Both the position numbers and the translations under genes were made by a program. DNA of 64,000 bases. Origin: Neofusicoccum parvum (lineage: Eukaryota; Ascomycota; Dothideomycetes; Botryosphaeriales; Botryosphaeriaceae). Each line of letters begins with the position of its first letter. Positions within the stretch are counted from its first letter, which is position 1. The stretch spans positions 1,364,001 to 1,428,000 of the forward strand of contig CP087218.1 in NCBI GenBank assembly GCA_020912385.1. Direction: 5' to 3'. The notes beneath the pieces were generated by a model, which saw nothing but the letters and a program-made list of their open reading frames with translations, made no database searches and was not told the DNA's origin. This document shows, in pieces, positions 635 through 52,455 of this stretch.

Positions 635-754
635 ACGTACGACCATAGGTCGCAGAATATAGGGCTTCCCGTCCGCTCAGCCGATACTCAAGCTGCGAAC
701 CGGCCAATTAGTACTCAAGTGGGTGACCATTGGGGAATCCTGGCTGTTGTACGT
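635..754 (+). rRNA. 5S ribosomal RNA (dispersed copy)
   Basis: This is a 120-nt block with the fungal 5S layout. It begins ACGTACGACCATA and ends GTTGTACGT, and these termini pair as helix I over nine base pairs including one G-U. The internal control region is intact: an A-box-like stretch near 700 and the C-box GTGGGTGACCA at about 719-729. A T-run follows at the 3' end as a Pol III terminator. Filamentous ascomycetes commonly carry 5S genes scattered as single copies rather than in the rDNA repeat, and a single copy here fits that. It was recognised by eye from the conserved blocks and the closing helix. Confidence 0.93.
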
Positions 755-1254
755 TTTGCATTTTGCATGGCTTCATTTTTCTTTTTTGCATTTACATGGA
801 ACGCTGCTTTTTTTGTCCCTTCCTTTCCCGTTGTCTTTCTTCGCTTCGTAGTTAATGCGTGCGGCGTTGGGACGTTTGTAGTTGTTGGCGTTGAAACCCC
901 GTCGTTGGACGTTGGAATGTGGGCTGCAGAATTTTCGGACCCTCTGGTCGCATGCCTGGCCAACATCCACCACCGAGAACTTCAAGAGCAACAATTGGCA
1001 ACAGTCCTCAAAGTGAACTAATTTCCCGAGCTCTTGTGTTCATTTGAAGGTCGTGTTCCACCCCGCACGAGCCAACTCCGCCGTCCGCACGGATGCCCAC
1101 AGATTTTTCCACCACCATGCCCCCAATGCTCCCTCTTCAAACGACCAAGTCCCTCCCCCGCCCGGTTCCTCTTCTTCATAAGCCCCGTCGCCCATTGTCC
1201 CCTCATCAAAGCACCCCAAGCATAGGAGGATCACCTCCTGTCCGCTTAGCCGCC
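755..1254. other. Spacer between 5S rRNA and tRNA-Tyr
   Basis: No coding or RNA gene recognised. The stretch starts with T-rich sequence after the 5S terminator and becomes C-rich toward the tRNA. Confidence 0.5.
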
Positions 1255-1340
1255 CTCCGCTTGGTGTAGTTGGTTCATCACGTTCGACTGTAATATCTGT
1301 TGCCATCGAAAGGTCCCTAGTTCGATTCTGGGAGCGGAGA
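1255..1340 (+). tRNA. tRNA-Tyr (GTA) with 11-nt intron
   Basis: The cloverleaf folds completely. Acceptor arms CTCCGCT (1255-1261) and AGCGGAG (1333-1339) pair perfectly, followed by discriminator A at 1340. The anticodon stem is TTCGA/TCGAA, and the T-arm is CCTAG-TTCGATT-CTGGG. Anticodon GTA lies at 1290-1292. An 11-nt intron (1294-1304) follows position 37, the canonical site for the tRNA-splicing endonuclease; tRNA-Tyr genes of eukaryotes nearly always carry one. The C1:G72 pair is the eukaryotic tyrosine identity element. The mature length is 75 nt, and a TCTTTT run follows the gene. Confidence 0.92.
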
Positions 1341-42551: not shown

Positions 42552-42651
42552 TCCTCCGTGGCGCAATTGGCTAGCGCGTCTGACTGTTACGGGAGTCCTC
42601 TGGGCTCCCACTGCAATCAGGAGGTTGACAGTTCAAGCCTGTCCGGGGGAG
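42552..42651 (+). tRNA. tRNA-Asn (GTT) with 26-nt intron
   Basis: Acceptor strands TCCTCCG (42552-42558) and CGGGGGA (42644-42650) pair with one G-U, and discriminator G follows at 42651, as for eukaryotic tRNA-Asn. The D-stem is GCGC/GCGC. The anticodon stem is TCTGA/TCAGG, with GTT at 42586-42588. The T-arm is GACAG-TTCAAGC-CTGTC. A 26-nt intron (42590-42615) sits after position 37, the canonical endonuclease site. A TTTTT terminator follows at about 42658. Confidence 0.92.
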
Positions 42652-51198: not shown

Positions 51199-52327
51199 GC
51201 GGCTACGCGGCTGCATGAATGCATGCACGCGCTCTTCCGTCATCTCGACCCAGGTGGCTGGAAAGGTTCGGTCGCGGCTTCTCCGGAATCTTTTGTATTG
51301 AGCGGGGATTTACCTGCATGGCCATTGACGCGGTGGTGACTCTTTTGCTACTTCTCAACAACAATATGGCGTCCAGGCTTCATTACCAAAAACTTTGCCA
51401 TTTTGGCATTCGGGTCTGAAGGGTGGAACTTTGCTTTTTTTGCTTCTTGGTCTTTTGATTTCCATTCCTGAGCCTTTATATCCTTTCTTCATGTAGCATA
51501 TCAAAAATTAGGTGGGTGCGGCGAGCAGGGAAGCATGGTGGCTGCTGACAGTGGTTCAGTGACGATGGTGGGCGGTTCTTTGCTTTGCTTTACTCTTGCA
51601 GTTCTGTGGATTTGCATAGCTTGCGGGTGCGGAATTCCCCTTTCTTAGTCGGGTACTCTAGGCAGTAGTAGGGAAGGTAAATGGAGCATCTGTCAACGGG
51701 GTTTTCTATGACTGTTCGTCATGCTTTTTGCTTCTTTCTTATTGCTGTTACCCTTGCCCTCCGAACGATTGACGAACGGCAAGTCACCGAGTTGATTGAT
51801 GTGCGACTTAATATGAGTAATCAGAATTCTTCTCTTTCAAGTTGTACCAGGCGCAATTTTCGCTTCTGCGCTGTTGAGCATCATGTAGGTTAGCATTAGC
51901 ACAGAGCAGTAGTTTTCTTCGTTTCCCTGCTTCACGGCTTTCGTCGTTCTCTTGTCGGCGGACATTAATACGAAATGCAATTTGGCGTTGACAATACGAT
52001 ACTTCTTGCCATGAACTCTTGCAACGAGCTTTGAAGATATCTTTTCCGCAGCAACAGCAGCACTCGGGTGTGAACGAGTTTCGAACAAGAAGCCAAAGAT
52101 GCAAATTTGTGGAACGCAGCAGGCGCGGCGGTGGACAAAGAAAACGGGGCAGCCAGTCGGGACACGCCCATGATCATTAAAATTGAGTGAGTCATTGCTC
52201 GCGGTGTGGGCCTTAGCCCGTCGGCACCGGTGGGACAAAAGAAATTGGTGGAGACAAACGCACACATGACCAGTGAAAATTCAAGGAGGAAAAAGGAGCA
52301 AAAAGAGCAAAAAGAAAGCCAATATCT
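51199..52327. other. Intergenic, NRD1 3' region
   Basis: This 1.1-kb stretch has no recognised gene; T-rich tracts near 51350-51480 probably belong to the NRD1 3' UTR. T-runs at about 52291-52315, read on the minus strand, serve as terminator for the initiator tRNA. Confidence 0.5.
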
Positions 52328-52455
52328 TAGCTGCGAATGGTTTCGATCCATTGTCCTCCGGGTTATGAGCCCGGCGCTATGATGGTTGTTAGTGAATTTG
52401 TTCAAGTCTTGTGGTGCATGAGGGTAGCTTACCGCTTCCGCTGCGCCACGCAGCT
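52328..52455 (-). tRNA. Initiator tRNA-Met (CAT) interrupted by a 56-nt spliceosomal-type intron
   Basis: Exon 1 (52455-52433, 23 nt) is AGCTGCG-TG-GCGC-AGCGGAA-GCG. Exon 2 (52376-52328, 49 nt) continues CG-CCGGG-CTCATAA-CCCGG and the T and acceptor arms. Joined, they make a standard 72-nt initiator tRNA with an A1:T72 pair, a G29-G31/C39-C41 anticodon stem, A54 and A60 in the T-loop (ATCGAAA), and a perfectly paired acceptor. The A-box (TGGCGCAGCGG) and B-box (GGATCGAAACC) are intact on either side of the insert. T-runs follow the 3' end. The insert falls between positions 24 and 25 in the D-stem, not at the usual 37/38 site. Without splicing the D-arm cannot form. No second initiator tRNA is in this window. 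Confidence 0.9.
52377..52432 (-). other. 56-nt GT-AG intron inside initiator tRNA-Met
   Basis: The insert starts GTAAGC, contains CACTAAC with the branch adenosine about 12 nt from the 3' end, and ends CATCATAG. Size, donor, branch and acceptor match the mRNA introns of neighbouring genes (42-95 nt). Removal restores the tRNA with no base missing or extra. The bulge-helix-bulge substrate of the tRNA endonuclease is not expected here. Confidence 0.85.

Follow-up and report, generated by a model that had tools for sequence, protein, structure and literature searches.

Introns at position 37/38 of nuclear tRNAs are removed by an established pathway of endonuclease and ligase, the tRNA endonuclease needing either that position or a bulge-helix-bulge (BHB), and the self-splicing introns of groups I and II are hundreds of nucleotides long and carry a catalytic core. 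Introns of the mRNA type have been described in several genes for structural RNAs. One study reports them in the genes for U6 snRNA in fission yeast and further fungi (PMC10484740), which supports the precedent that a preliminary description of the locus treated here had invoked for a spliced Pol III transcript. According to a 2017 paper, U3 and U6 were until then the only small structured RNAs in which introns were known to be frequent (PMC5832005), and spliceosomal introns in ascomycete rDNA appear in a title cited in PMC2586383. Among tRNAs, a review describes non-canonically placed inserts of 3-24 nt in Guillardia and, in Cyanidioschyzon merolae, a removal guided by the BHB (PMC4090602). 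A 2026 review sets tRNA splicing apart from the spliceosome (PMC13149111).

The locus lies in a window of 64,000 nt of the Neofusicoccum parvum genome (the whole stretch of DNA analysed, to which coordinates given without a contig refer), where an initiator tRNA-Met (iMet) gene runs on the minus strand from 52455 to 52328. Very probably, the features described below point to a functional Pol III iMet gene that carries a U2-type spliceosomal intron in its D-stem and belongs to a set of at least seven genes of this kind from the iMet, Trp and Leu(CAG) families. Exon 1 (23 nt, 52433-52455, nucleotides 1-24 in standard numbering) comprises the 5' acceptor strand and the D-arm up to G24, and exon 2 (49 nt, 52328-52376) comprises C25, the anticodon arm with the anticodon CAT (52365-52367), the variable loop, the T-arm, the 3' acceptor strand and A73. 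When joined, the exons are called by ARAGORN as a 72-nt tRNA-Met(cat) with complete pairing (acceptor 7/7, D 4/4, anticodon 5/5, T 5/5), in agreement with the split initiator tRNA first proposed and with its coordinates. The joined sequence has all of the features that we take to mark an initiator, namely A1:U72, the anticodon arm GGGCTCATAACCC, and A54 and A60 in the T-loop, which reads ATCGAAA. The 56-nt insert (52432-52377, minus strand) begins with GTAAGC, runs to ...CACTAACAACCATCATAG and is located at position 24/25, between box A (TGGCGCAGCGG, 52448-52438) and box B (GGATCGAAACC, 52349-52339); both boxes, read from the sequence and assigned by what we take to be the Pol III consensus, are intact, as had been claimed. 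Within the insert, the GTAAGC 5' splice site occupies 52427-52432, the branch site CTAAC 52388-52392 and the TAG 3' splice site 52377-52379, and the branch A (52389) is exactly 12 nt from the intron end, a distance initially given as about 12 nt. The first T5 run 3' of the gene (52309-52313, minus strand), which resembles a Pol III terminator, starts 14 nt downstream. The uncut gene receives no call from ARAGORN, and it was reported neither by the ARAGORN scan of the window nor by the Rfam scan of the window at the gathering score.

Since G is the last base of exon 1 as well as of the insert, the boundary can slip by 1 nt without changing the product, and only one of the two possible cuts yields GT...AG, as fits the spliceosome. 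ARAGORN makes the same iMet call at all nine cuts shifted from -4 to +4 and does not fix the exact boundary, which is set instead by the D-stem and by the intron-free paralogues. The combination of GTARGY, CTAAY placed so that the branch A falls 9-13 nt before the end, and YAG occurs in one of 639,438 window segments, taken at five lengths on both strands, and that one is the iMet insert itself.

A search of the genome (44 Mb, 18 contigs) found at least seven tRNA genes with D-stem inserts, distributed over three families and seven contigs, with the insert present in two of the three iMet, two of the three Trp and all three Leu(CAG) genes found. The iMet genes were listed, as the preliminary description had suggested, by an exact match to the anticodon arm GGGCTCATAACCC; the three matches are the window gene, a second gene with a 58-nt insert (C2:896369-896498) and an intron-free gene (C1:1470928-1470999). 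The Trp and Leu(CAG) genes were counted by match to the T-arm, for Leu(CAG) together with the 3' end, a census that would miss genes with a more divergent T-arm. D-stem inserts are carried by the Trp genes at C4:1075717-1075861 and C1:3696873-3697021 and by the Leu(CAG) genes at C5:2705772-2705936 (GTAAGT...CTAAC...AATAG at 25/26, plus a 37/38 intron), C17:499762-499927 and C16:428943-429105, the last of which differs in sequence from the other two. The insert is located at 24/25 in iMet and Trp and at 25/26 in Leu, and the insert-bearing Trp and Leu(CAG) genes additionally have an ordinary 37/38 intron. Thus, the phenomenon is not unique to the initiator tRNA. With the D-stem insert removed, ARAGORN calls Trp(cca) in 2/2 and Leu(cag) in 3/3 genes; uncut, one of these five receives no call and four are called as a wrong Gly with an anticodon-loop intron of 67-83 nt, so that all seven uncut genes are missed or miscalled. 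Rfam missed the window iMet gene but listed the C5 Leu gene at 34.3 bits, and the C17 and C16 Leu genes and both Trp genes were found by pattern scans. On the same strand as the C5 Leu(CAG) gene, 2.6 kb apart, there is a Leu(CAA) gene without a D-stem intron (C5:2703055-2703162).

The intron-free Trp and iMet genes are natural empty sites. The Trp gene without D-stem insert (C4:1074918-1075010) is located 706 nt from the intron-bearing one on the same contig, and its empty site reads GGTAGCG^CGTCAGATTCCA. The intron-free iMet gene differs from the intron-bearing ones at 6 nt, which make up three compensated pairs.

In form, the seven D-stem inserts are 52-60 nt long with GT...AG ends, too short for group I or II self-splicing introns. 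Six have GTAAGY and one has GTAGGT as the 5' splice site. CTAAY is present in every insert, the branch A lying 12 nt from the intron end in six cases and 10 nt in the seventh, and the 3' splice site is TAG or CAG. For comparison, seven coding introns of the window, from two genes (GCP2 and citrate synthase), were mapped by spliced alignment to homologues without use of the branch signal; the GCP2-like protein has 95% identity to that of Botryosphaeria dothidea (99% of the query aligned) and 99% identity to that of Neofusicoccum parvum (60% aligned), which would place the genome in the Botryosphaeriaceae, probably in Neofusicoccum. These coding introns are 48-57 nt long and end in CAG, TAG or AAG, and six of the seven have CTRAC at 9-15 nt from that end. 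The tRNA inserts share the form of the coding introns, and their signals are closer to the consensus. The reading of the window insert as an mRNA-type intron, proposed from a single gene, is supported and is strengthened by six further genes with the same architecture. T4 is absent from all seven D-stem inserts, which is weak evidence because six of the seven coding introns also lack it, and the first run of T4 or longer starts 4-14 nt after the seven genes. The inserts are richer in A (34% vs 20%) and poorer in G (13% vs 24%) than the coding introns, perhaps reflecting selection against structure; folding of the precursors gave no consistent picture. Similarity between families is slightly higher for whole D-stem introns (mean z 4.1, n=16 pairs) than for coding introns (2.7, n=21), and likewise for intron cores (z 1.0 vs 0.3), but given this difference in base content it is too weak to show a common origin.

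Functional genes with a spliceosomal intron have to be weighed against three other explanations. That the locus is an assembly or chance artefact, i.e., two neighbouring tRNA halves with an arbitrary 56-nt spacer, is refuted in practice, since position, length and signals are common to seven loci on seven contigs and none of the 639,437 other window segments carries the signal set. It would be surprising, too, if the inserts were removed by the tRNA splicing endonuclease in the manner of D-arm introns elsewhere. Such introns are known in C. merolae, according to PMC9602550, and in nucleomorphs, and certain eukaryotic splicing endonucleases recognise sites of this kind, according to PMC4090602. 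Yet the D-stem inserts, at 24/25 or 25/26, do not occupy the canonical 37/38 position, and in a test for the strict BHB motif, in two registers, none of the seven junctions offered the 4-bp central helix, the best case being 3/4 pairs in the Leu genes. Moreover, the endonuclease pathway has no need of the GTARGY, CTAAY and YAG signals present in all seven.

The third alternative, that the inserts disable silent or decaying copies while intron-free paralogues supply the tRNAs, draws on the existence of intron-free iMet and Trp genes and on an iMet exon-1 relic (C5:2996319-2996341, minus strand, L019), which has two mismatches, is followed by GTAGAC and has no exon 2 in the approximately 330 nt read downstream. 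It is nevertheless improbable, to about the same degree as removal by the endonuclease. The acceptor, D and T stems of the joined exons are fully paired in 7/7 genes, and the splice signals are retained in 7/7. The anticodon stem has 5/5 pairs in iMet and Leu and 4/5 in Trp, where the A31-C39 mismatch (by eye) is common to the intron-free Trp gene; decayed stems or exons were found in none of the seven genes. The most telling comparison is that of the two intron-bearing iMet genes, whose exons are identical at 72/72 positions despite intron cores that align no better than shuffles (z -0.4), with common splice signals and weakly similar flanks (z 2.5, 2.8). Neutral relics would not be expected to give identical exons together with unalignable intron cores, which disfavours the decayed pseudogene that the preliminary description had named as the alternative. 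The corresponding contrast between the C5 and C17 Leu genes (25/25 and 85/85 outside the D-stem intron, 45/60 inside) is less telling because their flanks are alike (37/62 and 47/65; z 5.8, 7.0) and their 29-nt canonical intron, part of the 85/85, is identical; these genes look like recent duplicates, and recent duplication or gene conversion contributes to the pattern. In the C4 and C1 Trp pair, 22/23 and 59/66 positions agree outside the D-stem intron (canonical intron included) and 43/62 inside, and the D-stem intron cores are related (z 2.6). For Leu(CAG), furthermore, the T-arm census of the genome found no intron-free gene that could supply the tRNA, although one with a different T-arm could have escaped it. 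This tRNA matters, since CTG serves 44 of 167 leucine codons in two coding genes. A Leu(TAG) gene without D-stem insert (C3:1434618, anticodon by eye) may allow wobble decoding of CUG.

For the preferred reading, a functional gene with a spliceosomal D-stem intron, the following course of events can be proposed. Pol III would transcribe the whole precursor, as suggested by the intact boxes A and B, the T-run after the gene and the absence of T4 from the intron; insertion between box A and box B would spare both promoter boxes. GUAAGY and CUAAY would then be recognised by U1 and U2, and spliceosomal joining of G24 to C25 in iMet and Trp, or of C25 to G26 in Leu, would complete the D-stem. The tRNA endonuclease and ligase would separately excise the ordinary 37/38 intron of Trp and Leu. 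We infer the spliceosome as the cutting machine from sequence alone, and this route would explain together the GTARGY, CTAAY and YAG signals, their spacing and the intron length. It is likely, if less firmly so than the reading of the window gene, that this fungus has a class of nuclear tRNA genes needing the spliceosome, with Trp and Leu(CAG) precursors cut by two unrelated machines, the spliceosome and the tRNA endonuclease. The spliceosome may then also be required for the normal decoding of CUG, since a D-stem intron is present in every Leu(CAG) gene found. The link between initiation capacity and splicing, put forward when the locus was first described, needs correction: two of three iMet genes carry the insert, but given the intron-free gene at C1:1470928-1470999, initiation is not necessarily tied to splicing in full.

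The count of seven genes is a lower bound, as the genome scans covered the following patterns and their matches incompletely. The scan for box A TGGC followed by GTAAGY gave 44 matches, six of which are genes already known. Any TRGY box A followed by GTAAG gave 136 matches, and among the 100 listed, 19 have D-stem pairing: four true genes, 13 other sequences, and C1:224016 and C2:1753549, which are also among the TGGC plus GTAAGY matches. TGGC plus GTRNGT gave 17 matches and yielded the seventh gene, two further matches being rejected by eye; the 15 matches of TAGC plus GTRNGY were assessed by eye only, and TGGT and TAGT boxes were covered with the 5' splice site GTAAG only. A strict box B test misses the Trp box B, and a T-arm test (5/5 pairs) was applied instead to 69 sites in 61 loci, comprising 30 of the 44 TGGC plus GTAAGY matches (three of the other 14 are known genes), L126, L130-L141 and L145-L162. 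It was passed only by the known genes in L092, L100, L107 and L145 and by the bacterial locus L152.

Public sequence collections were scanned as well. In viral contigs, exon 1 followed by GT...AG gave two matches, which are one stretch shared by two phage-like contigs without an ARAGORN tRNA prediction, and AG followed by exon 2 gave five matches, each within a predicted uninterrupted tRNA-Met; two additional viral contig scans gave 0 matches. Of two scans of genome-contig collections, one gave 0 matches and the other 15, all in bacterial records, which were rejected because 0/15 have a box B within 180 nt; one of these, L152, has by the looser T-arm test a 17-mer resembling a T-arm, but its distance of 26 nt downstream leaves no room for an intron and an anticodon arm. 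Thus, no relative was found in the collections scanned (viruses, bacteria, archaea).

Among the other Pol III genes, Rfam matched at least 49 tRNAs in the genome (63 of 860 candidates scored), a list that is itself a lower bound because the Asn and Tyr genes of the window are missing from it. Forty-five of the 49 lack a D-stem insert, since their anticodon stem begins at nucleotide 26 or 27; three were not solved by the script and show no such insert by eye, and the remaining one is the C5 Leu gene. Introns of this kind are not present in all Pol III genes of the genome, as each of the three U6 genes found aligns with the model over its full length (99-107 nt) without interruption. Four Pol III genes lie in the window: the iMet gene, a 5S rRNA (635-755, plus strand, Rfam), a gene at 1255-1340 (plus strand) that ARAGORN gives a 4-base anticodon (tcga) and that by eye is a tRNA-Tyr(GTA) with a short canonical intron, and a tRNA with a canonical intron at 42552-42651 (plus strand, Rfam), by eye Asn. 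Unusually long 37/38 introns (48-68 nt, C-rich by eye) are present in Gly(GCC) genes at C1:1382448-1382584, C8:1724309-1724447, C17:438172-438310 and C12:1022404-1022522.

Several known systems resemble the D-stem introns in part. Like them, the U6 introns are spliceosomal introns in a small structured Pol III RNA, but U6 is itself part of the spliceosome and thus has an obvious route by reverse splicing, whereas the hosts here are tRNA genes with internal promoters. Fungal U3 snoRNA is likewise a short structured RNA with a normal spliceosomal intron, yet it is a different RNA, capped and transcribed from its own external promoter, and the ascomycete rDNA introns, although spliceosomal and in a non-coding structural RNA, interrupt Pol I rRNA rather than Pol III tRNA. 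Canonical 37/38 introns also interrupt nuclear tRNA genes, including the Trp and Leu genes described here, and differ from the D-stem inserts in position, signals and probable machinery. The introns of C. merolae and nucleomorphs share the non-canonical D-arm position in a eukaryotic tRNA, from which the inserts described here are set apart by their length of 52-60 nt, the absence of a strict BHB, and their GT-AG ends and branch site. In line with the initial statement that no precedent in a tRNA was known, no account of spliceosomal introns in nuclear tRNA genes turned up in the literature searched, which was mostly open-access. Thus, spliceosomal introns in Pol III RNA genes are already known, and their presence in tRNAs appears to be new. 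Since tRNA finders tend to miss them, such tRNAs may be hidden or labelled as pseudogenes in other fungal genomes. The three families, two of which combine copies with and without the intron, would also offer a way to test how a structured RNA gains introns. If the reading is true, Pol III precursors besides U6 are spliced, tRNA supply is linked to splicing capacity, and the separation of tRNA splicing from the spliceosome is broken.
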